64,000 nucleotides of DNA from Sipunculus nudus. Its lineage: Eukaryota; Annelida; Sipuncula; Golfingiida; Sipunculidae. Each line of letters opens with the position of its first letter. The first letter of the stretch is position 1. The DNA lies in NCBI GenBank assembly GCA_026874595.1, contig CM049316.1, forward strand, positions 22,593,839 to 22,657,838, in the 5' to 3' direction. Both the position numbers and the translations under genes were made by a program. The notes below the pieces were generated by a model. The model was not told where the DNA came from and did not search any database. It worked only from the letters and a program-made list of their open reading frames with translations. Shown piece after piece: positions 11,817 through 46,801 of this stretch.

Positions 11817-12710
11817 GGTCCCGCTTGAAAAAGCGGATGCCTTAAATAGTAATCACCCTGTCCGTCCGTTCGTCCACAAATTCGTTTCCGGATGGTAACT
11901 CCAATTTGGATGAACATATGGATTTCAATCTTGACTTATATATGGCCCACCACCAAAGCAAGAACCCTTTCGATTATGGGTCATGATGTAAAGGTCACTG
12001 TCACAGGACCCACACGTTTAAAAAGTTTGTGGATTCTTTTTAAGTCAAACGTCCTATGTAAGACCTCCCGCCTTGCACATATACCTCCGCTGTCAATAGG
12101 GTAAGATCAGAATAGATCTTGGAGTCACAAGGTCAAAGGTCAAGGTCACGAGCCATCTGTCTACAAATTTGTTTCTGGATGATTATCCAATTAATTTGAA
12201 TTGACATATGGATTTCAAACTTGATTTACTTATGGTCCAACAACAAATGTAAGAACCATTTTCATTTTGGGTCTAGAGGTCACAAGTGAAGGTCACAGTA
12301 CCCACACCTTTAAAAAAGATTGTGGAGGCATTGTAAATGTTTCATCCAAAATCTCTAACTTTTGGATTACCTAACAGTAACAATAGGGGATATTGATTTC
12401 GCCATCACAAGTCCAAATCTCAAGGTCCCAGGACCATTCTTGCCGATTTATATGCTGACCCGGCGTAAAGTTTAATTCACCTGATGTAATTATGCCTCTG
12501 TTGTTTGGGATTCACCTTCATACACGACTATCACTCAGTCAACCCTTAACATCTTGTTCAAATGTGTAAATACTGTTTTGTGTTAGTTTTGTGTTAGTTC
12601 CCTCTGTCTCTGCATGTAATAATGTCCTTTATTATATTATTATATATTTTTTCAAGCATCATTCAGCAAGCACTGAAAGTATACCCGCCTTTTGCGGGCT
12701 CTTCCTGACC
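11817..12710. mobile_element. Family B hairpin-ended tandem-repeat element, copy 1
   Basis: Starts with a perfect hairpin CCGCTTGAAAAAGCGG (11821-11836), then AATAGTAATCACCCTGTCCG and CCGTTCGTCC. The body holds about two ~290-bp tandem units: GGATGGTAACTCCAATTTGG at 11890 and GGATGATTATCCAATTAATT at 12177. Each contains AAGGTCA-type blocks. It ends near CCCGCCTTTTGCGGG (12684-12698), which shares the CCCGC core of the first hairpin in inverse. No protein is encoded. Layout matches families A and C in this window and suggests a non-autonomous Helentron/HINE-like element; that is inference. Confidence 0.6.
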
Positions 12711-13378
12711 TGTCAGTATTCTAGTTTATTGTTGTCAAAATAAAGTCGATATTCTGGATTTCCTATAAATAAATTAAAATCCATTTCTTTCATTCAAAAT
12801 GGCTATATTGAGCACTAAAATATAAAGAATGTGGCGAATTAATTACAGTCACCTGTCATCGGATCAATGTGCCCTTATTTGTTTGTCACCCTCTAGATTA
12901 ACGAGTTTGTATTTGACACCAGCGATGCACCCAAAATCGATCATTTGGCCTAGAAGTGAACTATTGTGCAGGAAAGTATAAACAAGCTGATAGATCAAAG
13001 AATCCATCAACGCGTAGAACAATAGATATTAGCTCACCATGTCATCCAACATCGGCTGCGCCTCCGAACATGACTCGAAAAACTTCATTATATATAGACA
13101 GCTGCAGTAGTAGTCAATGCACTGTACATATACAGATTGAATGGCAGAGGAGCAAGTGACTGTCTATAGCAACGGCCCCAGCAAAGATGTAAAGGGGTAA
13201 TGTGGCAGCGCTTTCTGGGAATCATTGAACACCACCGGCCCCATCACGGTCACCAACACAAAATTATTGATTTACTACAAGTGTTTCATTTTTGTTTCAG
13301 CATTTTTGTACAAGTAACAGTGACAATGTGAGTAATAATAGAAGGAAGTTATGTATACCTGAACCAGTGATTCATTCA

Positions 13379-13380
<2 letters not shown>
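12711..13380. other. Upstream of the CAP gene, no exon recognised
   Basis: The missing 5' exon(s) of the CAP gene would be expected here or further left. No segment encoding a signal peptide or the first CAP helix could be identified. A + frame at 12956-13159 has no recognisable similarity. Confidence 0.4.

Positions 13381-13420
<40 letters not shown>
13381..13420. repeat. (GA)n microsatellite
   Basis: Uninterrupted GA dinucleotide tract. Confidence 0.95.
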
Positions 13421-13423
<3 letters not shown>

Positions 13424-14304
13424 GTGGGGTTCTGTTTAATCTTATGTGACAGCGTCCCTGTAGGCCACGGGGCGTTTTAAAAAAATGACGCAAATATTTG
13501 CAAACCTCATTGAGCCTAACATTGCGGGTACTATTGTATGTCAGCACCCCTTTATTCCGCCACTGTAAAATTAGTGGTAAAAAATAGACGTTGCAGTTAA
13601 AGAAGTTGTAGTAATAGTGACAGTGGTATTATTGTTATTTTGGTGAAAAAAAGGTATGAGGGCTCGTTGAATTTCCCTGGGTACTGACGTCACCTGTAAA
13701 ATAACATCAGATGCAGAAAGATTATACCAAGACATTCGCAGTATCGAATGTTCATTTCAGCAATATCCATCATGCATTAAAACTCTAATATTATATTTTT
13801 AACTTGTTATTTAGAAATGTATATATATAAAGCATGAACATTATGTCAAGATTACCTACAATGATTATCTAATGCGTCATTTAATGTATGTCATTTGTAA
13901 CGATTATTGTATACTTAATATGATGCCAAGGGTCCTCGCTGTATCAACGCAAAGTTCGCCCTCATGTGCAGCGCCTTTTAGGTTTCATTGACCCATGACA
14001 GAATCCTTATAAATACACGTTTTATACCAAAGGTCCTCCCTGAGCCGAGGGTTTTCGCTGTGAAGGTATATACTTGAATATATATTGAAGTTTATAGTAG
14101 TATAGTATTCAGTTAATTTAGAATAGGATGTAAACTAGCAGTTACATATGATGCATACATTTACTATATAGATCCCGGGTCTTTGTTTCTAACTTTTTAT
14201 CCTTTCTATTAACAAATAAGACATGACCACAAAACACCGGGCAAATATTTAGACATCGTCTATGTTTTATAGCTTTCCAGCATTTTCTTATGCTTTGTTT
14301 TCAG

Positions 14305-15661
14305 CAATGGAACTCATACCTGGCGGACATGGCTCAGGAGTGGGCGCAGAATTGTTCCTTCGCGCATGGGCAGCCGTCACGTGACAACAACACCATGCCG
14401 TACAGCTCCCTCAGACAAAACCTCTTCATGACAACTGGGACATTTAATGTAGAAAACGCTACACAAGTTTGGTTTGATGAGAAGAAAGACTATAATTTTG
14501 ACACTGGTACCTGCGCCGCTGGAAAAGCTTGTGGCCACTACACACAGGTACGGGCAAAGAATCAAATAAGGTAGAACTGCTCGGTTAGCCATTAAAATTG
14601 CCATCCTAAGGCCAAAATAAAAAAAAAAGGTATGGTTCTCAGGCACTTTTTTTTCAGAAATCAATGCGGGCGGGCGCTTTTATTATTTTAAATTTTTTGG
14701 TATGTTTCGAAAAAAATGTCAAATGATAAGGGAAAAGCATGAAAATAACAGTTTTATTTTGCTAAATAAGTAAAAGCACTACAAAACAAAGGGAATTGTA
14801 TGGTTTTATCTTCTTGAAAGAAATGTCGGAGCGGCAGCAGCTCAAAATTGGAAAGTTTGATTGAAAATCAAAATAAAAATTTTTGATGCGGGGGTTTAAA
14901 ATTGATGCGGGCGGTGCCTGAGAACCATACCTTTAATTTTTTTTGGCCTAATATAATTTGCTTTTAAGGGCGCGGTCACCGGCAGATCGTTTTGTCTGAT
15001 TCTGCTTGAAAGATACGGGTCTAGCTGCCAACATACTCTCTTCAGTCACAGATAGATTCTCACATTGTCTTCACCCAGAATATACTTATATTTCCGTACC
15101 CTTGACCTGCTTATTATTAACTGACGATAAAGATATGGAACCTACTCATGGGGGCTGCCATCTTGTCTACACACTAAAACCAAGATACAACAATACGCCG
15201 TTAATGTGCATAATTCAGGCATCAAATCGGCCTTTTAAATCAAGGTGACATGTTGCACAGTATGGTGTTCTCGGGACGTAATATCTCTTTCATCAAACGC
15301 CTATTAATTATTGTACCGTCACAAATTATGTATCATTTTAAAGGTCTTGAGTTTTAATTTCGAATTTTGACTGTTACAAAGTTTACAGATTAATTTTATG
15401 GTAGTACGAATTAGCTCAATACACGAAACATATGCTGATTTTTCTTGTTATCATGTGTCTTAGCCCTTTATTCATCAAGCTTTAACTTCTTATATGGATA
15501 AAGGGGCGTTCACACCTATCTGTTTTTATCCTTCCGCACCCGCACCAACTTCCGTCATCCGCCATCCATTGTCTCTGTTCACACCTATCCGCGCTTTTTC
15601 CGTCCGCACCCGCACTCATCACCTTTGTTTTTTATTAAATACACTATTATCTTTCGTGTAT

Positions 15662-15719
<58 letters not shown>

Positions 15720-15905
15720 TATTAATTCGTATCTAATCTAATAACAAAAAATGTATTACCATGAACCCTCTTAAACTTGAATTTGACCAAACTCGTGTAA
15801 TTAAGGTTTAGAACTGTGATTCATTCTGAAACCCCCGTTTCCACAAGGGCGCTTAAATTATTCTCCATACATTATGTTTAAAATATATATTATTATTATT
15901 ATTAT

Positions 15906-15965
<60 letters not shown>

Positions 15966-16549
15966 CTTTATACGCGCAAGTTCCAACTTTTCAAAGTGAA
16001 AAAGTGACGTATTATATTACGTCATAGTATGGAATCCCGTCCGCACCCTTTGTCCGCTTCCGTCGTGAATCAGGGGCGTTCACACCTGTCTGTTTTTTTT
16101 CCTTCCGCACCCGCTTCCGTCATCCGTCAAATTCGAGTTAGTTAAAATTACATTGGGCATTCACACCTATCACACCGTCCGCACAAATCGGTCTTGAACC
16201 GATTCACGACGGAAACGGACGACGGGTGCGGACGGGAATCCATATTATGACGTCATATAATAGGGGATATTCTGGAATGTGCTTGTGTCCTCCCCTTGAT
16301 AGAAAATGACAAAAGCGGTTTATTTTCACTATGAAAATTTGGAACTTGCGCGTGCCTCAATCCCGCTCGGGGAAAGCTTTAATTATTAATTGATATAATT
16401 CAAGCAATGTTATAAATAGAATCATATAAATCACCAAAGGAGCGGGGGCGGGGTAATTTGGAATAAAGACTGATAAGTAAAGACTGAATATAATATAAAT
16501 TTACTAGTAAGCCCACGAAAAATAAAATATAGCCTATTATATAAAGTAG

Positions 16550-16615
<66 letters not shown>

Positions 16616-19137
16616 ATAATGTTTGCATGGAGAATAATTTAAGCGTGCTGTCTACAAAAAATGTCTAATGACACAAAGATGTTATGTGTCATTGTCATGA
16701 ATCATGATGAATTTGAGAGTAAAACATTTGATAATCCTCATTATACAGTATGATTCCTTATCATATAGGATGATTGTTTTGTTCATGTTCATATACAGGT
16801 GGTTTGGGCTTCCAGTTGGGAGGTGGGATGTGGAATGCACCAGTGTACTACACTGACAGACCCCGACAACAGCAAAACCTACAGTAACGCTACTTACCTC
16901 GTGTGTAATTACGGCCCACCGTAAGTGTGAATAACACATTACAGCGTCATGCCATCATTACTACAGGGGAAATTTTTGCGAAAGCTTTTGGGAAATCTAT
17001 ATGAGAGATCTATCACTTGCCCGAGGTTCTGTTTTCTCAATGCTAACAGAATATGATTTATATTATGTATACCAATATACGAATATGTTTGTTTATGTTG
17101 CTGCTAACTAAAATGAAATTTCCGTTCAAGATGTGTGAATAATCATATTATAATTTAGTAAAATTCAACGGGAAGAGTTTGGGGATATTTATAAGAAATG
17201 CTGCATGTGAAATTTGAATTATATTACACCATGGAGTTATCAAAAATAAGCATATATAGTTAAAATATGTTTATTCTCTCCAGTGGGAACTACGCTGGAC
17301 AGAAACCATATCAGAAAGGCGACGTGTGCACAAAATGTTCTTCTGGAGAAGGCTGGTGTTTCGCAAACCAGTGTCGTATGTTTTGCGGTCAAATATTTAA
17401 TCATTAATCAACACAACTTTGTTAATAGTTAAATAAATAAAATTTAATTTTATATTCTTCCCGCAAAGGTGTATTTTATCAGTATTAATACAGATAATTA
17501 TTTATTTTCGAGTTAATTCATAAAACTGCATGGTATGCATAGACATATGTTTATATGTACCATGTATCAGAATTTATCGGGCAGAATAACAATATAAAAT
17601 GTTTTATTTAACCAGAAATAAATCGAAACTTGTTGCCTATTTGAAAACCACTCTAGCTTTGCAAAATGTGTAAAATTGGAATAAAGCTGTGATAGTTGTC
17701 AGGTTCATCTTTCATTAATTATAAAACGAACAATGAGTAAACTGTTCAGTTGTGATAATCTGTAAGAATATTGTGTTTTATTATGCAGGATCTAATTGCA
17801 CTGGAAGCGGAGTAATTTGTCGTAAGTTCGCAGTATTAAATACACTAACAAATCCATATTTGCACATTGTGTATCAAGTGTGTGAACTTTGTGTCACGAG
17901 TTATTCATCATTATGGGTAAATGCCGCTCGTGCATCCTTTGGCATGTTGTTTATTTCGCTCCAGTAAAGACTTTTACCAGACACGGCATCGCTGATGTTG
18001 AGTTTCTCATGCTTAAGAGATTTGATAATCATTTATAGGATGTATCATCAACCAAAGGGAGTTAGGCAATTTCGAGTTTTGTTCTGCTTAAAGACATAAA
18101 ACCGTCTGAATTAATGTAGAGTTAGTGTAGAGGAAGTCGTCTTCATAAAATATCCGAATATGTGTCAGCTTGTAGGAAAAGCGTATACTTAAATCAGTGT
18201 TGCCACGAAATTGTCACTTGTTGTGACGTTTATATATGTCACTGTTACTCTACGGTGTTTACTCGAGTGGTCCTTCAAGAGGTCAATTAATTTATTTCTA
18301 TTTATTTATTTATTTTTTGATACACGCATTTCTTTGTCATGTGGTAAATCTGTTTCTGTATCTTGACATGAAAGTTTAATAATTCCGTTTGCTCTTTATC
18401 GCACACAGAGTGTAAGGCCAGTTGTGGATCTTGCGGAGTAAGGTCAGAAGGAAACTGCACATGTGCCTGCAAAGCCGGCTGGATGGGACCTGATTGCGGC
18501 AGTAAGTGATAATAGTTATAATGTCCCGCTCAGTAAAAAAATTTACACATTTTTAGCTTATAATTAGTAAGAGTTCTGCCAAAAGGTCACTTGGTTATGT
18601 TTGCGTATACTGTTTCTATTTAATTCTTCTTTTTCGCTAAGCGGTTCACTGTATTGGTATATATAATACTCAGTATCATTACCGCATTATCTTTGCTCTA
18701 AAAGCATACCAGAATGGCACTCACGAACCCTGGCCCCGTCCTGGCCCTAGTCTTATTTTCCCTTTTATATAAATCACCCCTGCACTAGTTCAGAGTATAA
18801 TATTTCAAACCTTGTGAGGACTTTTTCGACAAAGGTCTTTCCTATTGTGATCCTAGCAACGCTGGAAATATGTGCACTGTTTTTTTTTAGGTCAAATATC
18901 CCGGTCGGATAGACTGATCTGATCATTCATGTTTTATAGGATCATACCTGTCTACAATACGATACACTTTGTTTATCTGATTTTTGGCTGGTGTCTTCAA
19001 AGAGGCTTGTGGCTGCATTAAAAAGATTATCTTGTTATTCTTCACTCAGTTTGCTTTACAGCTTAGAGCATTTCTCTGGTAGGTTCAGAGTTGCCCGGAA
19101 ACGATGATATACAGATGTATGGACTTGTATATACACG

Positions 19138-19189
<52 letters not shown>

Positions 19190-22100
19190 CCCTCTTGAGT
19201 AAGCGGTTGCCCTATAGTAATCATCCTGTCTGTGTGTCTGCCTGTTCGTCTCTGTACGTTGGTCATTATGTTTTCCTGGTGATAACTCCAGTTTGGATTG
19301 ACATACGGATTTCAAACTTGACATATATATGATCTTCCACTATCGCAAGAACTCTGTAGATTTTTTGGGGGTTATGAGGTCAAAGGTCAAGGTCATCCAA
19401 CCCACTTATTTAGAAAGATTGTGGATGCATTTATTGCCAAACTTTTCATCCAAAACCTTCAATCCTTCACATATGGCTTACCAGCGAATAGGGGAAGATT
19501 AATATTGGGGTCACAATTAAAGATTTAAGGTCCAAGTCACAGGGGCCATCGGTCTGCATATTTGTTTCCGGATGATAACTTCAGTTTGGAATGACATATT
19601 GGTTTCAAACATGACTTTTAAAATTTGACCCACAAACAATGTATGACCCCTATTGATTTTTGGGGCAAAGGTCAAGGTCACAGGACCAACTTATTTTTAA
19701 AGATTGTGGATGCAGTTTAAGCCAAATTTGTCTTCTCAAACCTTCCCTTTAACACATATAGGTGACCTGCAATTAGGAGATGAACCTGGTTGATTTTAGT
19801 GTCACTAGTTCAAAGGTCAGGGTCACAGTGGGCATCTTTCCATATATTTGTTTCTGAGTGATAACTCCATTTTTTTCGGATAAGAATTTAGGGGATTCAA
19901 ACTTGATTTATAAATGAACCAACAATAAAGTAAGAACCCTTTTTATTTTGGAGTCATGAGGTAATAGGTCAAGGTTACAGGGCAGTAGGCATCATTCAGT
20001 ATTATGTCAAATTACAGTCTGATTCAGGATTTTGGCTGGACCACATCGTGTTCAGGGTTTCGGCAGGTCAAATTTCTGATTGGAATTTGGTCTGGACGTT
20101 ATAAAAATATTCTTATAATCAATTTCAGCTGAGCGCCGTGACCCACAGGTCTCTTGTCTTTAGCTCACCTGACTGAAAGTCATCTGAGCTATAGTAATCA
20201 CTCTTTGCCTGTCGTCCGTTTAGCTGTCCGTCTGTCCGTCCGTCCGCCCGTCCGTTAACAAGGCACAAATCGCAACCGCTGAACCTATAATCTTTTAACT
20301 TGACATCCAGACAGGTCCATAAAAATCTCCTTGGAAAACTTTGGACCTCCAAGTAAAACCCCATCTGTTAACAGGGTACAAATCATAACCACTGGACCTT
20401 GAATCTCCTTACTTGATATCTATAGGCAGGTCCACAATAAATCTCCGTATAAACCGGAAATTAGGTCTCTGTTATCCATTTAATCTAAGCTATGGGCTCA
20501 GAAATTACCCCCAAAGATTAATTGAAAATTTGATACAAAAGCTCCTGTATCTGAACAACTAACGCATTGAACACCATGATTCTTGGCATGCATATTCATC
20601 ATGGAGTGTTTCATCAGTTCCTGCAGAATGGAGGCGCCACTTGGATTTTTTTTTTAATTTTACGCATTTTTTTCTCTATTTTTGAGACCTTCAAAGATGC
20701 AGTTGTCTGTTTACAGGGTACAAATTGTAACTATTCACCCTAAAATCTTGTAATATAACATCCAGTTAGGTCCATGAAAAATCACCTTGGAAACCAATAA
20801 TCAGGTCTCTGTTTCTTTGCATGCACTTTTATCATGGAACTTTTATCAGACTGGTTTGCCCCACCAAGATTTTTTTCAAAACTTTTATGCATTTTCTTAA
20901 TATTTTTATTTTTGAAACCTTGAAAGATACGTTCGATCCTTCACATGGCACATTTCGTTACCATTGCACCTAGAATCTCCTTGGAAATTACGTCTCTGTT
21001 ACCCATATCCTCTGACCTTATATGCTTCAGCTGAATTTGATTACCAACTACAAACTTTGACATTCAGATAAAAAAAAATTCCTTTTTATGAATGTCTTCC
21101 TAGTCAGCTGATCGTCATGACCCCTGGTTCACTTGTTTTTCTAAAGTCGTTCAATCTTTGAGCCGGTAATAATGATATTTTGTTCATTACTTATGACACA
21201 AAAGGGTTGGACTAAAGTGAGCAGCAAATCTTTAGGTAACAGATAACTAGTTATGTGGTTTTAAAGAAGAGAAACAAGTACAGCCGCCTTGCCAATATTC
21301 AAACATAATTCCATTCAGTCTTACCTGCCCAATTGTCAACATGCATATGTCACGGCTCAGTGACCAGGATCCACATCCGGGTACACGGTACATTACACGG
21401 CACACACATTCGGGCCTTGCACCTAGCAGCAGCACGTGTTTTATTTTTTTGCACATAGTTAAGATGGGGAAAAAGAAGGACCAAGAAGCAAAAGCAAATG
21501 ATTTTTCAGAGGAAATGAAGGCAAGAAACTTCAGTGAACAGACTATTAAGAAACTTCTGTCAAATGGTTTTGAATCAATTGAACTTTTAAAATTAATGTG
21601 TGAGAATAGAGGCGTCATTGAAGACTCAGGTCTCACGTTAGCCCAAAAATTGTTGTTATCGAAATACCTGGATGAGTGGGCCCAGGGTGATAACAGGAAA
21701 GCAGGGGACAAAACTCCACTGAAAGGTACGCCTAACATACAGCAAGAAGTTAATCTCACAGACTTCCTACAATCATTGAATGTCATCATTGAATGTCGAC
21801 TGATTAAAACTACGTTTTGTAATGCCAATTCAAGGCACAATTTAAGCTCGGATGAGTGAAAGTCATCTAATAATAGTAATATATAAGAAATGGTCTTCGT
21901 CCGTCTTCTGTCCTGCCGATAATTTAACCTGGTAATTTTTGTCCCTTTAAGGACTGCAATGACCATTATGCACTTTGCATTTGTAGCGCTCTTCATAAAT
22001 AATACTAAGAACGCAGAATTAGAATTTCAGTAGCATGAATTGTTAAAACTTTTCAAAGTTGTAGTATGTAGATATGAGTTATGGTGATGAGACACGCTTG

Positions 22101-25106: not shown

Positions 25107-25282
25107 GGATCAAGGGGGGGTTCAGGGGGTCCGGACCCCCCCCCCCCTTTTTTTTTATCAGAAACAACGTATTTTAAGGGCTTCAGACAAGATTTTGCGG
25201 CCTGGACCCCCCCTTTTCCAGCCCTGGGGACCTTTTTTTAGGTTGCACCCCCCTTTTCCCAAATCCTGGATCCGCCCCTGCA
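25107..25282. mobile_element. CAGGGGCGGATCCAGG-type repeat
   Basis: Starts AGAAGCGGATCAAGGGGGGG and ends CCTGGATCCGCCCCTGC, giving inverted ends around C-runs and T-runs. Related pieces at 4365, 6120 and 6550. Confidence 0.6.
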
Positions 25283-26487: not shown

Positions 26488-26494
<7 letters not shown>

Positions 26495-26540: not shown

Positions 26541-26542
<2 letters not shown>

Positions 26543-27732
26543 TGGAGAAAGACGATGGGCTGCCGCCCGCTCAGGCCCATATGTAATCCGATAAGGTTAC
26601 CTTGGCCTAAAAAATAAAGCACAAGTTTATGAACCATAAACGCCATCTCCACCGGTATTCCAGGTTTGGATTTTCCGCTTGTGGTGCATTTACAATTATT
26701 TCAGGGCTATAGATATACTTTATTTATTAAATTATAAATGATGGAGACAGGAATATGCTGTGTTAAGGAAAGGGGCGTCAATACAGGGGGTTAGGGTAAA
26801 TAGCCCCCCCCCCCCCCCACACACACACACACTTTTTAGCAAGTGGGATGGTCAATGTAATCATCCCCTGCTATTCAGAGAATAATATTTATGTACTGAA
26901 AATGAAATATATTATTAATTGAAATTATAAGTAATAAAAATTCCAAATATATAAATGAAAATTCAATTTTAGATTTGACTATGAAACGTGTATCCAATCC
27001 TGGTTTTAAAATTAACCTACACTGGAATGTAATACCAATGTGTGACACAGACAATAAAAGGTTTATATGTGTGTGGGTGCGTGTGTATATATGTTTAAAA
27101 AAAAATTCCCAACTCTTATAACCTTCCACGCCTGCAAGTCATCCCCCATTCTTGAAGATAAATTGTCGCCAATGGTTAATGCAAACCTTGCTATAATTTC
27201 ATGTATATAAATTCTCTTTTACCACCAGTGAGATGTTTCTTTGATTACATATATAGATTTAATATTTTATATTTTGTAATATTTACACTTGATTATATAT
27301 AGATATGTATAAATGTATTTATTTCTTGGTTGGATTCGGGAATTTGGTGAAAATATTTTCAACTTTGTATGCCTGTAGTCGTTATTAAAATTCACAAGTT
27401 TCATATATACATTACTGTTCAATTTTATAAAGGAGGTTAATTTACTGAACCCCCTGAATCATCCAACCACACCCTGGATCAAACTTATGATGCACATACA
27501 CTGTACAAACTGCAGGAAAGGATTATGTCTCAAAATAAATATTTGATACTGAACCTATTGATGAACTTTTTTGTTCTTGTTTGATTGACTGTGTTTTAGT
27601 TTGTGATGAAAGCAATATACATGTTCAATTCTTAGCCAAATAATGGCTCTAGCACTAATGTGGACCTCCATTTTAAAGCATTTATATGTAGTGATATACA
27701 TATATATGTAGTAATTCATTGCATGGGTAAAA
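26541..27732. other. Intergenic, no recognised gene
   Basis: Contains a C-run followed by a CA tract near 26805-26830; otherwise AT-rich without recognisable features. Confidence 0.5.
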
Positions 27733-30700
27733 CAAGTGGCCCATGACGCTCAGCTGAATTCAAGGAATGTTGAACAATGAGCAAAATGACTTCCAGAGTG
27801 GAAACAAATAATGAATTTTGTGAAGAGTCCTTAGAAATGGGTTTCAGTGGGCTTTTGGACAGATGACAACTTCATTGAAGGTCTCATAAATAGAAAAAAA
27901 AAATGCGTAAAAATTTGATAAAATAAAGGGAGTGCCACCAGTCTGCAGGAACTGATGAAACACTCCATGATCAATACATATCCAAAGAATCATGGCTATC
28001 AAGGCATTAGTTATTCAGATACTGGAGCTTTTGTTTGTATCAAATTTTTAATTATTCTTGGGGGAATTTATGAGCCCTATAGCTCAGGGAATATGGGTAA
28101 CAGAAACCTTATTTCAGGTTTCCAAGGAGATTTTTCATTAGTCTCCCTGGATGTGAAGTAAGAAGAATCTAGGTTCAGCAGTTAGTTTGTGCCATGTTAA
28201 CAGATGACCACTTCATTCGAAGGTCTCATAAATAGAGAAAAAATGCCTACAAAATTGATAAAAAATACAGGTGGCACCACCAGTTTGCAGGACCTGATGG
28301 AACACTCCATGATCAATATACCTGCAAAGAATCATGGAGATCAATGCATTGGTTATTCAGATACTGGAGCTTTTGTATCAAATTCTTAATTATTCTGAGG
28401 GGTACTTACTACGAAGGATATGGGTAACAGAGACCTAATAACATGTTTTCACACAGACTTTTCATGGACCTCACTTGATGTCAAGTTAGAAGAATCTAGG
28501 TCAAGCGGTTAAGATTTGTGCCCTGTTAACAGATGACAGCTTCTTTGAAGGTCTCAAAAATAAAGAAAAAAATACAGGTGGCGCCACCAGTTTGCAGAAA
28601 CTGATGGAACATCCAATGATCAATATTCATGCAAAGAATCATGGTGATCAATGCAGTAGTTATTCAGATACTTGAGCTTTTGTATCAAATTTTGCATTAT
28701 TCTGGGGGGTACTTTGGAGCGCCATAGCTCCAAGGATATGGGTAACAGAGACCTAATTTCAGGTTTTCCAGGAGATTTTTCATGGACCTCCCTGGATGTC
28801 AAGTGAGAAGATTCCAGGTCCAGTGGTTACGATTTGTGCCCTGTTCACAGATGACAGTTTCATTGCAGGTCTGAAAAAAAAGAGAAAAAAATTCGTAAAA
28901 ATTGGAAAAAATATAGGTGGCACCATCAGTCTACAGGAAGTGATGGAACATCCCATGATCAATATTCTTGCAAAAAATCATGGTGATCAATGCAGTGGTT
29001 ATTCAGATACTTGAGCTTTTGTATCAAATTTTGCATTATTCTGGGGGGTACTTTGGAGCGCCATAGCTCCAAGGATATGGGTAACAGAGACCTAATTTCA
29101 GGTTTTCCAGGAGATTTTTCATGGACCTCCCTGGATGTCAAGTGAGAAGATTCCAGGTCCAGTGGTAACGATTTGTGCCCTGTTCACAGATGACAGTTTC
29201 ATTGCAGGTCTGAAAAAAAGAGAAAAAAATTCGTAAAAATTGGAAAAAATATAGGTGGCACCACCAGTCTACAGAAAGTGATGGAACATCCCATGATCAA
29301 TATTCATGCAAAGAATCATGGTGATCAATGCAGTAGTTATTCAGATACTTGAGGCTTTGGTATCAAATTTTGCATTATTCGGGGGGGGGGGGTACTTCGG
29401 AGCGCCATAGCTCGAAGGATATGGGTAAAAGAGACCTAATTTCAGGTTTTCCAGGAGATTTTTCATGGACCTCCCTGGATGTCAAGTGAGAAGATTCCAG
29501 GTCCAGTGGTTACGATTTGTGCCCTCTTCACAGATGACAGTTTCATTGCAGGTCTGAAAAAAAAAGAGAAAAAAATTCGTAAAAATTGGAAAAAAATATA
29601 GGTGCCACCACCAATCTACAGAAAGTGATGGAGCATCCCATGATCAATATTCATGCGAAGAATCATGGTGATCAATGCAGTAGTTATTCAGATACTTGAG
29701 CTTTTGTATCAAATTTTGCATTATTCTGGGGGTACTTTGGAGCGCCATAGCTCGAAGGATATGGGTAACAGAGACCTAATTTCAGGTTTTCACGGAAATT
29801 TTTCATAGACCTCCCTGGATGTTAAGTGAGAAGATTCCAGGTCCAGTGGTTACGATTTGTGCCCTGTTAACAGATGACAGTTTCATTGCGATCTGGAAAA
29901 AAGAGAAAAAAATCGAAAAAATTGGAAAAATACACGTGGCACCACCAGTCTGCAGAAAGTGATGGAACATCCCATGATCAATATTCATGCAAAGAATCAT
30001 GGTGATCAATGCAGTGGTTATTCAGATACTTGAGCTTTTGTATCAAATTTTGCATTATTCTGGGGGGTTATTGGGAGCCCCCCGTAGCTCAAAGGATATG
30101 GGTAACAGAGACCTTATTTCAGGTTTCCATGCAGACTTTATATAGACCTCTCAGTGTGTCAAGAATGAAGATTCTAGGTCCAGTCTTTATGATTTATGCC
30201 CTGTTAACAGCTGTTCACATTTTTAAATTCGTAAAAAATCGAAAAATTCAGGTGGCGCCACCAGTCTGCAGGAAGTGATGGAACATCTCATGATCAATAC
30301 GTATGCCAAAAATCATGACCATCAGTCAAGTAGTTAATGAGATATTGAAGTTTTTGTATGAAATTTTTGACTTTTCGGGGGGGTACTTTGGGGCCCCATA
30401 GCTCGAAGGATATGGGTAACAGAGATCTAATTTATGGTTTCCACTGAGACTTTTAATAGGTTTCTCAGTGTCGAGAATGAAGATTCTAGGTCCAGCGGTT
30501 ACGATTTGTGCCACGTTAACAGATGACAGCATCTTTAAACGTCTCAAAAATAGAGGAAAAAATTGTAAAAAAATCGAAAAATACAGGTGGCGCCACCAGT
30601 CTGCAGGAACTTATGGAACATCTCATGATCAATATGTATGCCAAAAATCATGACCATCAGTTTTGTAGTTATTGAGATATTGAAGTTTTTGTATGAAATT

Positions 30701-31267
30701 TTTTACTATTCTGGGGGGTACTTTGGGGCCCCATAGCTCGAAGGATATGGGTAACAGAGACCTAATTTCTGGTTTCCAAGGAGATTTTTCATGGACCTCT
30801 CAGTGTATCAAGAATTAAGATTCTAGGTCTAGGCTTTACGATTTGTGCCTTGTTAACAGATGTTCACATTTTTAAAGGTCTCAAAAATAGAGAAAAAAAT
30901 TTGTAAAAAATCGAAAAATACAGGTGGCGCCACCAGTCTGCAGGAAGTGATGGAACATCTCATGATCAATATGTATGCCAAAAATCATGACCATCAGTCA
31001 AGTAGTTAATGAGATATTGAAGTTTTTGTATGAAATTTTTGACTTTTCTGGAGGGTACTTTGGGGCCCCATAGCTCGAAGGATATGGGTAACAGAGACCT
31101 AATTTTTGGTTTTCATGGAGATTTTTCATGGACCTCTCAGAATCCCAAGTTACAAGGTTCTAGGTTCAGCAGTTACGATTTGTGCCTGGTTAACGGGCGG
31201 ACAGACGGACGACGGACAAAGAGTGATCGCTATAGCTCAGATGACTTTCAGTCAGCTGAGCTAAAAA
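27733..31267 (+). mobile_element. Family A element with ten-unit tandem array
   Basis: The 5' end is ACAAGTGGCCCATGACGCTC followed by AGCTGA. The core CATGATCAAT of successive units falls at 27966, 28308, 28615, 28954, 29292, 29639, 29973, 30289, 30624 and 30961, spacings 307-347 bp. Each unit contains GGTGGCACCACCAGTCTGCA, a CATAGCTCGAAGGATATGGG block and GATTTGTGCCCTGTTAACAG. The end has GGACAGACGGACGACGGAC, then a hairpin at 31235-31263 with ~13-bp arms (one mismatch, 3-nt loop) followed by A-rich DNA. GCTCAGCTGA (27748-27757) and TCAGCTGAGC (31253-31262) are exact subterminal inverted repeats. The design resembles non-autonomous Helentron/HINE elements with central tandem repeats. Short frames in it are not genes. 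Confidence 0.75.

Positions 31268-33332: not shown

Positions 33333-33421
<89 letters not shown>
33333..33421. repeat. Long (TA)n microsatellite
   Basis: About 89 bp of uninterrupted TA, among the longest in the window. Confidence 0.95.

Positions 33422-33424
<3 letters not shown>

Positions 33425-35654: not shown

Positions 35655-35657
<3 letters not shown>
33422..35657. other. AT-rich intergenic, no recognised gene
   Basis: No coding region, RNA gene or repeat recognised apart from a G-run near 35563. Confidence 0.45.

Positions 35658-35726
<69 letters not shown>
35658..35726. repeat. (TA)n microsatellite
   Basis: Uninterrupted TA tract downstream of the TMPPE minisatellite. Confidence 0.95.
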
Positions 35727-35729
<3 letters not shown>

Positions 35730-35869
35730 AAGGCCCGGTTCAAGGGATGTATCTCCTCAACTCATGACTATGAATCTTCATTGATAACTCCCCTCACTAT
35801 GAGTATGATCAAGAGGGGCTCCCATCTACAAGGGATGTACTAATTTAGGTACATGTACCTCCACTTTTA

Positions 35870-36440
35870 TGAGGGTTTCCAAAGGATTATGTTACTTATT
35901 TTCACAGAGATGATTATCTCCTGAGTGGGGGGGGGGCTCCTGAGGGTTATGCGACTGATTTCCACAAAGGTACCACATATTTAGGTGATTATGTAGGAAA
36001 TTTCTACAAATGTACCACCTTTTAAGATGATTATGGGAGGCTCCCGAGGATTTTGTGACATATTTCCGCAGAGGAACAACTTATTAAGCTGACTGAGGAG
36101 TTTCTGTTGGTTATATAAGAAATTCCCAGAGGTACCACCTTCTTTTTTTTTGGGGGGGGGGGGGGGCTTCTGAGGGTTATGGGACTGATTTCCACAGAGG
36201 TACCAAACTTATTTAAGTGATTATGTGGGTAATATCTACAAATGTACCACCTTTATAGGTAATAATGAGGGGCCCTTGAGGGTTATGTAATAAATTACAT
36301 GGAGGTATCACCTTTTTAGATGATTATGAGGGGCTCCTGCAGGTAATGTAATAATTTATATGGAGGTATCACCTTTTTAGGTGATTGTGGAGGGGGATGG
36401 GGGGCTCCTGAGGGTTATGTGAGTAATTTCCATTGAGGTT
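35870..36440. repeat. ~60-70-bp minisatellite overlapping the TMPPE stop
   Basis: About nine diverged units of the form GGCTCCTGAGGGTTATGTGA + CTGATTTCCACAGAGGTACC + ACCTTTTTAGGTGATTATG. Cores sit near 35935, 36030, 36100, 36167, 36276, 36337 and 36410. The rightmost unit (about 36371-36440) contains the last coding codons and stop of the metallophosphoesterase gene; the rest lie in its presumed 3' UTR. Confidence 0.75.
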
Positions 36441-39400: not shown

Positions 39401-42074
39401 AATGAAAATCCATCTATAAATAATGTATAATGTACCTCAAAAGCCTCAAGATTACATGTGTAACTTTACTTTTATAATTCTATTGAAATCTGTGTGTATG
39501 ACTTATAAACGTTTGTAAAACAGAAAAAAAATGTTGGTTTTCTTCCAATGTTAGATGGTAGTGTCCTTTTAAAATCAGATTAAGTCTATGTAACTGTTTA
39601 TGTTTAGTCTGCTTGCAAAGACATTATTCATGTGTGTGTCTCAGTCTGTGATATTAATAATTAATATAAAGTAAAATAACTCCTAGGAATGTTTTTATTT
39701 GCTTCAACACTGGTTTTAAACATTGAAGACTTTCACATTATCAGAAAATCTCTCAAATTCAGGTGCATGATTTTGTTTTCTTTACTATAGAAAAAAAATG
39801 TCTTGATCATTTAATAATATTATTGCACTGAAAAAAACATTGATGTTTGCACCCAAACTTTTACACATAAAATTTTTAAAAAATGCCTGATTTGGTCATG
39901 CTTGCAAGAAAACCTTTGACACTTTTGCAAATCTGTAATTGGAAGTACATGTACCATTATGGTATTAAAATACTGTAAACAAAGATGTATTGACAAATTT
40001 ATTCAAAATAACATATGTTTTCATTGTCTTTTAAACTTAATAAAATCTAATCATGGGAAATACTGCACCTATGAGGTTTTAAAAATCATGCAATTTTCAA
40101 AACTTTATCAAGCCTCATCAATTTTTCTTTTAAAATTTTAAGAAACAAAAATGTATAAGGAATTTCCTACCAATATGTTAGAATAGAAGCAATAATACTG
40201 TGGCATACAGTAAGTTTTTGTTTTACAAATGGTGTTTGTCAATAAATTTCCTGAAAGAGCAATTCAAAGTGTTAATATTTAATATAAATAAAAATTTTTA
40301 TGTTTGACTGTGGAACTCAAATGCCATTTTTCCACAGCTTACAGGACCACTCTAGACATTTGAGAAATTCTCACCTGTGATATAATATTTCCCATATTTA
40401 GCTTTAATGAGTCTTAGTGGTTCGGCAGCTTCATGTAACCTGGCAACAGATCCATCAACAAGATCCCCTGTAAGCACTACCGCATCTGTAAAAATAAAAT
40501 ATGTATATATAAGACCTGATTAAAGACATAAGATCTTTCAGGGAATGGACCCATATTTTTTTATGTATTTTATCTTTCATGGCACTGAACCTATGAATTT
40601 TATAATTTTAGAGCCATGTTCACTACCTATAACTCAATTTTGTAACATTAACTGGAAATGTGTCAACTTTAAGAACTAAGCTAGACTGATGGAGAACAGT
40701 GCAGAAAGAAGTGCAGTGCATTAGAGATCAGGGCAGTTCTGTCCATATTATATCTGTAGGGGCACAGCTTTTACCTGGACTGTTATCTGGCTGAATATAT
40801 AGTTTTTGGCTTTAATTTAGTGTGATCATAGACATGGGTTATTTAAATACCATGTAGCTGCACTTTTTTGCTAGTGTCATACTTTGTGTTGATGGAGCAG
40901 GTACATATTTTATTCAACAGTTATACCTAAATTAGTTATAAGAGCCATCTGGTGTTCACTCAGTGAAAAAAAAGTAACTCTGGCATCCAGGCATCCATTC
41001 TGTTTAACTTCTCTATATATAACTTCTTTTAAAAAAATGTTAATAAATTAATGTGAGGAGTTACAGTTATAGCCTTATAATTAACAGCAATATGATTCCA
41101 TCATTAATGAATACACCATTTTCTAAAACCTAAAAAAATGTAAAAACTTTAAAACAAAGATTCCCATAAATTTTGATAAATCAATTGAACAGATACTGCT
41201 TCTGCCAAGGGATCTGAACTATCATGAATTTGGTCTTTCTTGCTTTCAAATGTCTGTAGAAGCAACAATACAAACAAATTTTAAATCAAGCTTACATAAG
41301 TTAGTGGAAACGTAAAAGAAAATTACCTGGATTAAGCTGGTTTACCATGTTTACAACGCGTAACATCTTGGAGAATCCTACTGTAGGCCCCAGGTGAATG
41401 TCACTTATTTGAACAAAGGTTATGCCATCCATGCTTTTTGGTAATTTATGCAGTGTAATTTCCACAGGTTTTATACCAGGTGGCAGTGAAGCTTTGTGGA
41501 GTCCATACATTGTAACAATCACGGAATATGCAATAGCTGTGAGCACTCTGTGAGGTGGTCTTAAAATCCGAGGTACAGGGTTGATTTTGTGTTCTTTATC
41601 ATGGATGCCATCTTGACTATATTTAGCATCTGTTGTTTTTGTTTTTTGTCCTTTATTAAATAATGCATAAAAAGCCTTAAATATATAGGCACAACCGATT
41701 AAAATAACCAAACAAAATGTAAGCTGGATAAAGCTACCAAGGCAGGCATAAGACATGAGACTAATAATATTTGGTTCCTTTGATATGAAAAATAAATTAC
41801 TAGCATAACTAAGGTGAGCAACAGTAAGATATATTACCGCTGTAACCTTCATTATCGCCCGGAGTTTCCGTGAAGCGATGTGAGACCAAGACGCTGAGGC
41901 ATTTACCCAAAAGATACGCCCGATTATGAACAAAATTGTTTGTAACATCAGCACAAAATGGAATCGGAAGACTAATGCCTTTGTTTCTTTTGACCTCGTG
42001 AACGCATAAAGCTCACCCAAAACAAAAATTGGTATGACTATCAATGCCCAGACGACAGCTCTGGGCGCAGCCAT
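36377..42074 (-). CDS. TMPPE: Transmembrane protein with metallophosphoesterase domain
   Basis: Five - strand exons: 42074-41327, 40485-40375, 39236-39071, 37843-37704 and 36588-36377. All have AG/GT borders and join in frame to 458 residues; vertebrate TMPPE is about 450. The start is the ATG at 42074 (AACAACATGGCT context, MAAPRAVVW). Residues 1-195 contain about five hydrophobic segments (~6-25, 38-57, 73-97, 104-131, 177-193). The catalytic domain follows with the calcineurin-like metal-binding motifs in order: SDIHLG (D225, H227), GDLVDG (D257), GNHEYY (N288, H289), LLAHQP and GHTHGG (H390, H392). All metal ligands expected for this family appear present, so the enzyme is probably an active integral-membrane phosphoesterase. 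Its substrate is not known from sequence. The last coding unit is part of a minisatellite, and the 36589-37703 intron carries a SINE. Confidence 0.93.
36878..37238 (+). mobile_element. tRNA-derived SINE in TMPPE intron
   Basis: Head reads TAGCATAATGGTTAAGGGTG (A-box-like), then GGTTGTGGGTTTGCATTTTG (decayed B-box) at tRNA-like spacing. A ~250-bp body includes CTCGAAAGACCAGGAAGGCA and AGTCCAATGAGACTGACATT. The tail is a simple repeat, CCTTTACCTTTACCTTTA. Orientation is opposite to the host gene. No target-site duplication was found by eye. It is a SINE rather than a tRNA gene because the acceptor arm is not closed and a long tail follows. Confidence 0.75.
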
Positions 42075-42754
42075 GTTGTTTTTGGTGATGGGCCGCTTAC
42101 GGTCAAAAGACAAAGGTCAACGAGGTTGTCAGGCTGGTTCCCGCCTCTCTGCCCTGAGTAAAATGCTCCGGCTAGTTCAAACAAAAAAAAAACTATAATT
42201 AGTGATTTATTTATTTAAAATTTTATTTCCAAACGTAGATAGCCACATGGCAGAGAAAAAATTTCATTTATTATGTTGTTTTTAGGCCTATATACCCGGT
42301 AGGCCTATATATAGCTAGGCCTATCATACAAAATTGTAAGACAATTTTTCGAGAAGACTAGGCCTTAGGTTACTTGAAACATATTGGCCTGATACAAGGT
42401 ATGATAGTGGTTTAAAAATTACATTTCGAACTAAAAACAACGTTAATATTGATTTCAATGTTTCATTTTAACCATGGATGCTAAATTAATCCCCCCCCCC
42501 CCAAAAAAAAGAAAAAAGTTCCCGCCTTGGATCGATCGAGAGACCTATGACGATTGGCTTTTAAAGTACCGGTAGACTTACGGGATGTAGGCCGCCTACA
42601 TAAGAAAAACAATATAAACATTGTTTTAAATTTATATTTAACCCCATAAAGTTTATTTCATTTAAATCCAGTGTAATACGTATACAGTGTATATACATGC
42701 CAGATGTATTTTGATGTTTTGTTTTTGTTTTGTTTTATTTGGATATTCATCAGT
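42075..42754. other. Upstream region of TMPPE
   Basis: Presumed promoter and 5' UTR of the - strand gene near 42075-42180; no TATA or specific element is assigned. Short TAGGCCTA palindromes around 42290-42330 and a C-run at 42490 follow. A short piece around 42460-42540 (AACCATGGATGCT then C-run) resembles 38845-38890. Confidence 0.4.
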
Positions 42755-42800
42755 AAAAATTGATTAACTCAGGGGTCATGGCGCTCAGCTGATTTCTGAC
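42755..42800 (+). repeat. Isolated 5' end of a family A element
   Basis: CAGGGGTCATGGCGCTCAGC then TGA matches the 5' terminus of the family A elements; no body follows. Confidence 0.6.
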
Positions 42801-42953
42801 GAAGAGAATTAAATTCTAGCTATCAGCTTTTGTGTCTAAGGCAGTTGCGAAGCAATTATTGAATGGATTTAAATTTCTCCAAATGTTCCATGGTAATTAT
42901 ATATACACGTATAGGCCTATAGGTGTAAATGATGCACGCGTGTTCTTTCAATT

Positions 42954-42985
<32 letters not shown>

Positions 42986-43271
42986 ATGTATAGAATTTGG
43001 TAGCTTGCTTCTTATACAGAGTGATACGTCAAGTCTGATTTCTAAGTCTGAAAATTATTATGAAAGAATATAAAGGGTGGCGTCACGTAACAGTCTCCTA
43101 TACCGCAGAAAAGTCTGTCTATGATCAATCAGATTACCAAATTTTAGAAAGATTATTACGATCATAATAGGGATATCTTATCTAAAAGTAAGAATTTCAT
43201 ACCAACAGGAAAAAAAGTAAAAATTTCGCAAAATTGTCCGATATTTTTTTTTAAATGTTAGATGTGAATTA

Positions 43272-44609
43272 TACGGTGGCTCGTATAGGACATGCACAAA
43301 ATTATTTTTTATCTCGTTCCCACGCGTAAGTATCTCGTTCCCACGCGATAATTATCTCGTTCCCACGCGTTAGTATCGCGTGGCCACGCGTTAGTATGCC
43401 ATGCTATAGCTTAAGCCCTCATTTGGACAAGAACGTCTGTGGTCTGTTTTATATCGAGCGTCGATGCAGCTTAAATTGTTTGTATGTATTTCGTTGTATG
43501 TGTGTTTGCGCCGAATGCTTTGAGGTAAATTTCAGCAGTTTTCATTGCGTTTGTTCACCATTTCATTGCGTTGGTTCAACTAGCTCATTTTTATTTGTTC
43601 ATGGAAAACTGTATTGTACGGTGGCTCGTATAGGACATGCACAAAATTATTTTTTAACTCGTTCCCACGAGATAGTATCTCGTGGCCACGCGATAATTAT
43701 TTCGTTCCCACGAGATAGTATCTCGTTCCCAAGCGATAATTATCTCGTTCCCACGCGATTGTATCTCGTGGCCACGCGATAATTATCTCGTTCCCACGCG
43801 ATATTATCTTGTTCCCACGCGATAATTATCTCGTTCCCACGCAATAGTATCTCATTCCCACGCGATAATTATCTCGTTCCCACGCGTTAGTATCGCGTGG
43901 CCACGCGTTAATATGCCATGCTATAGCTTAAGTCCTCATTTGGACAAGAATGGCTGTGGTCTTTTTTATACCGAGCGTCGATGCAGCTTAAATTGTTTGT
44001 ATGTATTTCGTTGTATGTGTGTTTGCGCCGAAAGCTTTGAGGTAAATTTCAGCAGTTTTCATTGCGTTGGTTCACCATTTCATTGCGTTGGTTCAACTAG
44101 CCCATTTTTATTTGTTCATGGAAAACTGTATTGAGTTTGTTTTAGGGTAAGGGTGATATAAACCCTTGTGTACCAAACATGAATTAAACTGAAACACTTG
44201 TTTGCATTTTACCTTCCCAGAAAATCTTATTTTTTAGGACTAGGGTTGGGGTTATTTAATTTCGGATATACCGAACAGGGTAAACAACATGTCGCTTTGT
44301 GTTATGTCTCAAGGGAGAAGCTTACAACAAAAGGTCTCAGCCATGCCACTTCATTATGACTGGGGGAGGGGTTAAGGAGACCTTTTTACGAGAAATTTGC
44401 TCATTCTTCCCCTTCACATTTTTCTTTCTACAATAAAACTTCAGTTATGTATTCATAGGCGACGAAACCTTGGGGGGGGGGGGGGGCGCGGGGGCCGAGC
44501 CCCCCCCCCCCCCCCCCCCCCATAATTTTTTTTTATTGCTCAGCCCCCCCCCCGACATAATGAAGGGTATAAAAACATCCACTCTATTATTATTGGGTAT
44601 TTGCACCCT

Positions 44610-44674
<65 letters not shown>

Positions 44675-45159
44675 TCTTCTGCTCAGTACTTGGAGTACCA
44701 TATATACAGGGCCGCAGACTCCGGGATTTGCGGTGAAAAAAGTTGATATTCTGAGTGAAAGTGAATTCATTGCCAGACAAATAACAAATAATCTCCCTAC
44801 AAGGAGGTACTGTTTTACTAAATAAGCATTGACCAATTAAATGCACCAGAATGCAGTAGTACCCATACAGTTTTTCAAAATTTTCAAAACCTTGGGAGGG
44901 TGAGACCCCCTCCAAACCACCCCCACCCCCCTATCGCGTGGGAACGAGATAATTATCGTGTGGCCACGAGATACTAACGCGTGGGAACGAGATACTAACG
45001 CGTGGGAACGAGATAATTATCGCGTGGCCATGAGATACTAACGCGCGGGAACGAGATAATTATTGCGTGGCCACGAGATAATAACGCGTGGGAACGAGAT
45101 ACTATCTCGTGGGAACGAGATAAAAATAATTTTGTGCATGTCCTATACGAGCCACCGTA
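43272..45159. mobile_element. Long-TIR DNA element with ATCTCGTTCCCACGCG repeats
   Basis: Exact inverted ends TACGGTGGCTCGTATAGGAC (43272) and GTCCTATACGAGCCACCGTA (ending 45159) are flanked by a 6-bp direct repeat GAATTA (43266-43271 and 45160-45165), a convincing target-site duplication. Inside each end are reiterated ~24-bp near-palindromic units of ATCTCGTTCCCACGCGATAA or ATCTCGTGGCCACGCGATA. A second copy of the left terminus starts at 43617, and an adjoining ~220-bp segment (43396-43616) is repeated at 43913-44136, so the left half is tandemly duplicated. The middle has G/C runs and a TA tract (44611-44673). No transposase is encoded, so it is non-autonomous. Confidence 0.85.
44611..44673. 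repeat. (TA)n microsatellite
   Basis: TA tract inside the 43272-45159 element. Confidence 0.9.
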
Positions 45160-45230
45160 GAATTAAGATGATGCACAAGCTTTCATTTTTTTTTTTGGGG
45201 GGGGGGCTGGTTTCAATATGTGCATTAATT

Positions 45231-46801
45231 GCTTGCCGGAAATCTTCGATTTCGGCAAGCATGTTGGTCAGTTGTGTATGTCTGTTTGTTTGTTTGTCTG
45301 TCTCCACCCGCAAATGCACAGTTTTGTAGCGATCGCTTTCAAACTTACACAGTTGATGTACAACCAAAAGTGTCCGAAGCCTATTGAATTTTGTAAATAT
45401 TAGTCAGAACAAGGTCAAGGTCATCAAAAGTTTGCAAAACGGTTTTTTCTTCATATCTTTGTCACCATTAGTCATATCTACTTCAACTGTAGCTCATTTT
45501 AATCGTCATTCCAAGGCCTTTCTTCTCCTGTGTAGCTGACTCAAATTGGCCGTAACCATGGTTAAATATTTTCGTGGAAAAGTCATGATGAATGGTCTTA
45601 TTTTTCTAACTTTGTCAGTTTTAAAGCTAGAGAGGACTAGTTTTTTGCATCAGGTAGTATTCAATTAGTGTTATTTGATTATATTAAAAGTCTTGCAATA
45701 TCTCGTACAATATCTCGTTAAACGAGATATTTAGAGATATCACTAAGTATAGACTAGAGTCTTCAATTATGCAGGAATCATTTTGAAACTGATATCTTAT
45801 GTCTGACATTAATATCTAGAAACGGATTTTTCATTTTCCGGATATGGCCGCTAGGGGGCGCTGCACTTGAACCTCCCAAACATAACAATTTTTGGACATA
45901 TCTCCAAAATATGAACCTCAGTTACAGAAATTATAGCTTGGTTTCTTCCTCTGGGTCTTCTTGATAACCTGGGAAAGTCATCTGGTCTAAATCTTGTGTC
46001 ACTTTGTCAGTATGTCTGTCTGTTTGTCAGTTGTCCTCAAATTCGCCTGCTTGCTGGTTTTCGCATATATAGCATTCTACAGGACACAGTTTTGAAGGAA
46101 TCCTTTTGAAACTGGTACATGTTATGTCTTACACAAATATCTCGAAATGAATTTTTTCATTTTCCGAATATGGCCGCTAGGGGGCGCTGCACATGACCCT
46201 CCCCAACATATCACTTTTTTTGGCCATATCTCCATAACTATAATTCTCAATTACAGGAAATATTATTTATTTTCTTCCTCTTGGTCTTCCCCATAACCTG
46301 AGTAAGTCATGTGGTCTCATTCTTGAGTTACTTTGTTGGTATGTCTGTCTGTTTATCAGTTGTCCTCAAATTCGCCTGCTTGCTGTTTCTTGTGTCTTAC
46401 ATAAACCATTCTTCAGGTCACAGTTTTGAAGGAATCCTTTTGAAACTGGTACATGTTATGTCTTACACTAATATCTCGAAAAAGATTCTTCATTTTCCGG
46501 ATATTGCCGCTAGGGGGCGCTGCACATGATCTTCCCAAAAATTAAATTTTATTTTCTTCCTCTTAGTCTTATCCATAACCTGGTTAAGTCATATGGTCTA
46601 AAGCTTAATTGTGTCACTTTGTCAGTATGTCTGTCTGTTTGTCAGGTGTTGTCAGCTCTGTCTGCTTTCATGTTCATTTGTGTGAAATTTGTCGTGCAAC
46701 ACGCCTAACTTTTCACCAGTCGTTCTGAAACACTCAGTTGTTAAAAAACCGAAAGTTTATTCTGTCTGTCCGTGTGTTTGTGATTTCAACTTCCGGCAAG
46801 C
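45231..46801. mobile_element. Family C hairpin-ended tandem-repeat element
   Basis: Begins with a hairpin at 45231-45260 (arm GCTTGCCGGAAATC, tight loop), then TATGTCTGTTTGTTTGTTTG and TCTGTCTCC. The body has three ~330-bp units marked by GCCGCTAGGGGGCGCTGCAC at about 45847, 46173 and 46506, each with a GTCTGTCTGTTTGTCAG block. It ends with TTCCGGCAAGC (46791-46801), the exact inverse of the first 11 bases of the hairpin. Same plan as families A and B although sequence differs. No protein. Confidence 0.65.

Follow-up and report, generated by a model that had tools for sequence, protein, structure and literature searches.

Three families of satellite-carrying non-autonomous Helentrons in the genome of Sipunculus nudus, and a candidate partner for one of them

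Among the described mobile elements that combine terminal hairpins with internal tandem repeats, the closest to those considered here are the HINEs, non-coding relatives of the rolling-circle Helentrons. The DINE-1/INE-1 elements of Drosophila and HINE-Mo of a mite have subterminal inverted repeats (subTIRs), a partial inverted repeat (IR) beside the 5' subTIR, a GTCY microsatellite, central repeats, a 3' stem-loop and a preference for TT (PMC2374699, PMC4067079; here and below, published work is cited from the parts that were accessible). Similarly, the Cg_HINE elements of the oyster Crassostrea gigas comprise several families unrelated in sequence, each with a 5' subTIR and its complementary IR, a GTCY-like microsatellite, central tandem repeats, and a 3' subTIR with a palindrome, and they insert into T-rich or TT sites without target-site duplication (TSD) (PMC7492417). 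The Pearl elements of bivalves, non-autonomous and classed with the HINEs, carry short arrays of tandem cores, with six units at most (PMC7492417). The Helentron partners of the mite elements code for Rep, helicase and endonuclease (PMC4067079); for the oyster, the accessible parts of the two studies state that no relation to the HINEs could be established for 10 autonomous elements (PMC7492417) and that there was no evidence of autonomous sequences (PMC7992393). Here we analyze a 64,000-nucleotide stretch of the annelid Sipunculus nudus (the window; assembly GCA_026874595.1, contig CM049316.1, C11:22593839-22657838), in which a preliminary description had pointed to three repeat families, A, B and C, that might be HINEs mobilized by one rolling-circle machinery.

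The structural features tested here speak for the HINE reading, and we class A, B and C as three HINE/DINE-1-like families of non-autonomous Helentrons. The hairpins, TGTCYG tracts and tandem units described previously are all present on direct reading, with unit lengths of 337 bp in A (Tandem Repeats Finder), ~287-293 bp in B and 323-334 bp in C (both from self-alignment offsets). In all three families, a T-rich 5' end and a subterminal-repeat hairpin are followed by a GTCY-rich tract and the tandem units; beyond these come an inverted subterminal repeat and a second palindrome, on the 3' side, and the element terminates in CTAGTT or CTTGTT; the hairpin and its inverse arm had been recognized before, whereas the second palindrome and the CTWGTT terminus of each family had been missed. 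In the genome copies of all three families, the 5' subterminal repeat is accompanied by its complementary IR, the resulting hairpins fold, and a GTCY-type microsatellite follows. At the family level, A, B and C all have the inverted repeat and palindrome near the 3' end; in the window, the A and B copies are damaged in this region. The elements hold only short frames, as judged from a six-frame list of frames of at least 90 aa made with no protein-library comparison. Compared by description, not by sequence, the units of ~290-337 bp differ from those of Cg_HINE (mostly 140-180 bp) and of Pearl (~160 bp) (PMC7492417). DINE-1/INE-1 and HINE-Mo have other sequences.

Does this design coincide with the boundaries of actual elements? 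Genome copies were taken from the window's own assembly (1.43 Gb, 153 contigs): 20 were fetched for family A, which together with the window copy make 21 sequences, 30 loci represent family B, and 10 chosen copies of family C were each read at both ends. The preliminary description would have been undermined by copies ending elsewhere than at the hairpins; in fact, one boundary of the copies coincides with the hairpin and the opposite one falls directly after the 3' palindrome, with neither an outer terminal inverted repeat (TIR) nor a TSD seen beyond these boundaries. In HINE orientation, family A runs from a T run through AGCTCAGCTGACTGAAAGTCATCTGAGCTATAG, the GTCY-rich tract, the ~337-bp units, TCAGCTGAGC and a spacer to the palindrome GGCCCATGGGCC and ACTTGTT. 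In a correction of the preliminary description, the window copy (27731-31262, plus the T run) lies on the minus strand, so that the hairpin is the 5' end, and GCTCAGCTGA at 27748-27757 is a part of the 3' end. The boundary ACAAGTGGCCCATGGGCCATGACGCTCAGCTGA (on the strand first queried) is shared by the 20 fetched copies and the window copy, the latter without 7 nt of the palindrome, and the boundaries are common to 21 of 21 sequences on each side. An A-type hairpin end was located for all 21, that of L023 being 5.4 kb away and perhaps belonging to another element, and that of L011 being the farther of two; both end probes match in 19, 1.5 to 4.25 kb apart, the 5' probe having failed in L020 and L023. 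The T run before the hairpin reads TTTTT in 17 of 22 ends, and CTTG is followed by TT in 18 of 21. For the array of the window copy, Tandem Repeats Finder reports 7.8 copies of period 337 at 28568-31194.

The inverted repeat of family B had been thought to be only weak, which reflects erosion of the window copy: other genome copies carry AGGGCCCCGC / GCGGGGCCCT, a perfect 10-mer. The B 3' end, ...GGGCCCTTCCTGACCTGTCAGTATTCTAGTT, was found in 25 of 30 loci (with up to 9 mismatches in 31), and the 5' hairpin probe matched 22 of the 30 (up to 5 mismatches in 19), the match in L031 being spurious. All 10 copies of family C have common boundaries, from TTGCTTGCC (with variants) to CTAGTTT. The coordinates are collected in Table 1.

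Table 1. HINE-related features of the window (positions are those of the whole stretch).
Feature	Position	Strand	Remarks
Family A HINE, whole element	27731..31267	-	5' end on the high-coordinate side; boundaries common to 20 genome copies
A 5' subterminal repeat and hairpin AGCTCAGCTGACTGAAAGTCATCTGAGCTATAG, T run before it	31230..31262	-	
A GTCY-rich tract	31195..31219	-	read directly
A tandem array, ~337-bp units	27859..31194	-	
A 3' end: TCAGCTGAGC, remnant of 3' palindrome, CTTGTT	27731..27757	-	7 nt lost in window copy
Second A-type copy	20162..21137	+	hairpin 20162-20194, 3' end 21104-21136
A-type 3' end just upstream of second A copy	20125..20157	+	5/33 mismatches
A-type 5' hairpin	49830..49862	-	4 mismatches
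Degenerate A-type 3' end	42760..42792	-	8/33 mismatches
Family B HINE, whole element	11816..12726	+	
B 5' hairpin	11818..11841	+	eroded copy
B 3' end: subterminal repeat, palindrome CTGACCTGTCAG, CTAGTT	12693..12726	+	
Second B copy	19186..~20005	+	without 3' end
Family C HINE, whole element	45229..46824	+	
C 5' hairpin TTGCTTGCCGGAAATCTTCGATTTCGGCAAGC	45229..45260	+	
C GTCY/GTTT tract	45280..45305	+	read directly
C 3' end: TTCCGGCAAGC, palindrome CGACCTATGGTCG, CTAGTT	46791..46824	+	

Between families, the tandem units show no likeness (the self-alignment listing has no cross-family row), which would fit the notion that only the arrays are real, as dispersed satellites, the hairpin design being due to chance or to an artefact of reading. 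A structural scan for a hairpin, at least 3 GTCY, an inverted 10-mer with at most 1 mismatch and a CTWGTT end recovered A and C in the window (2 matches) and nothing in 10 shuffled windows; B, whose copies in the window are eroded, was not recovered there. The window and the long loci together gave 14 matches, the loci having been fetched for A and B and thus being no free sample. When an intact 3' palindrome was required in addition, the window yielded 7 rows, 1 of them with a hairpin (C), and 20 shuffles yielded 81 rows, none with a hairpin. Genome-wide, the exact A-type 5' hairpin pattern has 23,424 matches (related subfamilies included) and the exact C hairpin pattern 1,181, with 0 for either reversed control. 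Given the absence of the design from shuffles, these match numbers and, above all, the dispersed copies with fixed ends in differing flanks, which contradict it directly, the satellite notion retains a negligible probability.

The search for an autonomous partner, which the preliminary description had called for, was conducted with the PF14214 profile and gave 143 genome matches, 7 of them in open frames >2,200 aa. The element at C17:35630192 has one open frame of 2,342 aa, which was read in pieces, not entire; its protein matches PF14214 (Rep), PIF1 and DUF6570 above cut-off, and there is a Herpes_teg_N-like match at 25.1 bits, the cut-off being 25. The same sequence contains GDFNID and DHGTLIDLVF, which may relate to a putative C-terminal AP-type endonuclease. 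The Rep carries FYRVEFQQRGSPHIHM (FYR...RGSPHIH), and F/Y-x-R and G-S-P are residues diagnostic for Helentrons (PMC4067079), so that the C17 lineage combines a Rep of Helentron type with a PIF1 helicase. Approximately 1 kb past the stop codon lies TCAGCTGAGCATCATGACCCATGGGTCACTTGTT, the Helentron 3' terminus: two more places of this lineage (on C5 and C10), taken from among the Rep matches and examined at the distance where the end was expected, agree with the C17 3' region at 98.6% over 495-499 bp, and the sequences of the three copies diverge directly past CTTGTTT. This terminus differs from the A end at 2-5 of 34 positions in 20 of the 21 A sequences; in 300 kb of shuffled control, the closest match has 12 mismatches in 34. 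Moreover, the palindromes of A and the Helentron differ in both arms (GGCC..GGCC versus GACC..GGTC) in such a way that pairing is preserved.

The exact Helentron 3' 34-mer occurs 339 times in the genome (reversed control 0), as against about half a dozen other places alike at >95% to the Helentron 5' region among the matches listed; most carriers of the 34-mer are thus probably non-autonomous. In addition, the A tandem unit and the non-coding 3' region of the Helentron share two diverged blocks of ~60 bp (44 matches in 15 of the 21 A sequences, in 0 of 50 shuffles, and none with the C11 lineage described below), which suggests, without proving it, a Helentron origin of the A array, and family A may accordingly descend from the C17 lineage. 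Judging by these likenesses, a Helentron lineage of this genome, with an almost identical 3' signal, is probably the source of family A. Unlike the mite HINEs, which are deletion derivatives 84-99.9% identical to their partner (PMC4067079), the likeness tested here comprises the 3' end and short diverged blocks. The proposal of one rolling-circle machinery is borne out only as to the kind of machinery, with A tied to one Helentron lineage by the 3' terminus; B and C have other subterminal repeats and palindromes.

Several candidates for further pieces of this relationship were discarded. The sequence TTTTTCAGCTCACCTGA in L087 was considered as the Helentron 5' terminus, but likeness to the C10 copy continues upstream of it and, among the matches listed, at least 5 other places are alike from query position 1. 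No A-type hairpin was found in the upstream stretch L097 of C17, and the guessed 3' region of C13:9109249 (1.7 kb) contains no CTWGTT. The C11:50385293 lineage is a group of long elements that code for Rep together with OTU protease and DUF6570 domains and is represented by four places that are 98-100% alike over 2 kb (itself and three at 98-99%); in each of the four, the 3' region extends >2 kb beyond the stop codon, with one CTWGTT and no palindrome before it, and no A, B or C ends were seen in this lineage. As a separate observation, the C10 Helentron (L092) ends ~11 nt before another A-type 3' end.

To examine insertion sites, we joined the flanks of 47 A, B and C copies and matched them against the small sequence sample in hand; empty paralogous sites, another check suggested beforehand, turned up for 3 A copies. 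Two of these, L021 and L024, share one host repeat, which leaves 2 independent sites. In each case, A inserted in a T run or TT, with only T repeated on both sides (T/TT); for B and C, the corresponding evidence consists of T-rich flanks. Inverted repeats at both ends could also be read as the TIRs of cut-and-paste elements of the type of miniature inverted-repeat transposable elements (MITEs), with TT as a 2-bp target duplication, and DINE-1 was once read in this MITE-like way (PMC2374699). For the families described here we consider this reading very unlikely: the repeats are subterminal and unequal, the hairpin partner is present on one side only with a separate palindrome on the other, TIRs flanked by a target duplication were not found, nothing beyond T being duplicated at the A sites, and the A-type 3' end also occurs on an element coding for Rep and PIF1. 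A derivation from canonical Helitrons (5' TC, 3' CTRR, insertion between A and T) might be envisaged for B and C, which end with CTAG before T, fitting CTRR, and have a palindrome a few nucleotides upstream. Yet the 5' ends are T-rich (a T run followed by AGCTC, TTAGGGC, TTGCTTG), not TC, the A sites are T/TT, and the C17 Rep has S where Helitrons have L (PMC4067079), which makes a canonical Helitron origin highly improbable.

Taken together, these data make it very likely that A, B and C are HINE families, that is, non-coding Helentron derivatives, moved by Helentron machinery. Certain points weigh against this reading. No spanning empty-site match was found for 44 of the 47 joined flanks in the small sample in hand, and none for B or C among those tested; furthermore, within a T run, a TT duplication and no duplication look alike and cannot be told apart. 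The middle of the 2,342-aa C17 frame was not read, and its Exo_endo_phos match is below the Pfam cut-off (22.6 versus 24.5 bits, E 1e-4). Owing to its damaged palindrome, the A copy of the window departs from the 3' end of the Helentron at 14 of 34 positions. The 5' terminus of the C17 Helentron was not reached in the upstream stretches examined, which leaves the 3' end and short internal blocks to carry the partner link, and no autonomous partner was found for B or C.

With this in mind, the movement of the families can be envisaged as follows. The Rep-helicase-endonuclease of a Helentron would recognize the T-rich 5' end with its hairpin and, at the 3' end, the subterminal repeat, palindrome and CTWGTT; one strand would be peeled from the 5' end during rolling-circle replication, the peeling would halt at the 3' palindrome, and the single strand would be joined into a T-rich (TT) site without target duplication. 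Families B and C would follow the same design with other recognition sequences, presumably those of other Helentron sublineages. We infer the recognition, strand transfer and termination, as well as the origin of the arrays, from the anatomy of the elements. For the TGTCYG tract next to the hairpin, the previously suggested role of recognition site finds no support: the tract corresponds to the variable (GTCY)n microsatellite of DINE-1 (PMC2374699), and such a microsatellite is not universal among oyster HINEs, the accessible part of that study listing GTCY-like motifs for 6 of 11 elements (PMC7492417).

Elements of the same design are not confined to A, B and C. A fourth HINE-like family, D, lies within the C17 Helentron (L087, reverse complement, ~1614-2477), with the hairpin GTATCCACCAAAACGAAGTTTTGCAGATAC, the end CTATATTCTAGTT and tandem units containing GGTGGCGCCACC; it is also present within at least 5 other copies of this Helentron, and its 5' part matches ~30 other genome places at ~80%, starting near the same point among the matches listed. 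A fifth family, at L023:3346-4520, has a TATGCCCCCGCC hairpin, GTCY and the end GGCGGGGGCATTCGTGTCGTTCCGACACATCTAGTT. Some copies adjoin one another: the second A copy of the window begins 4 nt past an A-type 3' end (20125-20162), and L013 contains two A-type elements in succession. At 19186-20157, a B-type 5' end and units are followed by an A-type 3' end, with no B 3' end, possibly a chimera or a truncated B adjoining an A remnant. Just upstream of C, at 43265-45164, a 43-bp repeat (TTATCTCGTTCCCACGCGATAG...) forms two direct arrays and one inverted array. At C1:327821-327976, three C hairpins are ~60 bp apart.

As a further regularity, neighboring copies up to ~100 kb apart mostly point the same way. 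The lists examined comprise the first 100 A-type places (C1:96419-2656454, the first 2.66 Mb) and 100 C places (C1 and C2:1-3715251), and the following counts refer to the matches listed. The A-type hairpins are on the minus strand in 85 of 100 cases, including 59 of the first 60, and form 9 strand runs, a number as low as which was seen in 0 of 100,000 shuffles, also with places <2 kb apart merged. For A, neighbors are on the same strand in 48 of 52 cases when 2-20 kb apart and in 30 of 33 when 20-100 kb apart; the corresponding values are 19 of 20 and 10 of 11 for C, for which the successive bins beyond 100 kb give 5 of 10, 6 of 13 and 10 of 18. The minus lean of these lists (A 85, C 75 of 100) by itself leads one to expect ~75% and ~63% agreement in the absence of any local effect; taken alone, the C count for 20-100 kb carries little weight. 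Genome-wide, the strand totals are near even (A-type, 11,537 and 11,887; C, 556 and 625). Local copying accounts for a part of the shared orientation, as in the head-to-tail array of whole C elements near C1:19.45 Mb, where five C 5' ends follow at 1,292-1,293-bp spacing (C1:19449791-19454960). Two observations argue against a single orientation rule: near C1:1.38 Mb, an A on plus has a C on minus 0.2 kb away, and both strands are represented in the window, with two B, two A and C on plus and the 27.7-kb A, together with the A-type ends at 42.8 and 49.8 kb, on minus. The bacterial IS200/IS605 elements record the direction of replication (PMC5371812, accessible part). By analogy, the coherence over ~100 kb (~1 Mb in one A stretch) might mean that Helentrons insert their single strand into one particular strand of replication forks as these pass, an explanation that we put forward tentatively and regard as rather unlikely. 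No account of orientation domains of Helitrons or Helentrons surfaced in our literature search, which mostly did not extend to full texts.

The anatomy of these elements has already been described in oyster and Drosophila, and the partner link is an advance for one family within a known class. Satellite-carrying HINEs thereby gain a candidate partner, a connection that the accessible parts of the oyster studies leave unresolved (PMC7492417) or undetected (PMC7992393), and the terminal signals needed for a transposition assay are now defined. Should the coherence of orientation hold genome-wide against local duplication and gene direction, fork targeting by eukaryotic rolling-circle transposons would become testable from assemblies, and, if the idea is true, the orientation of HINEs would be a fossil record of the direction of germ-line replication in an animal genome.

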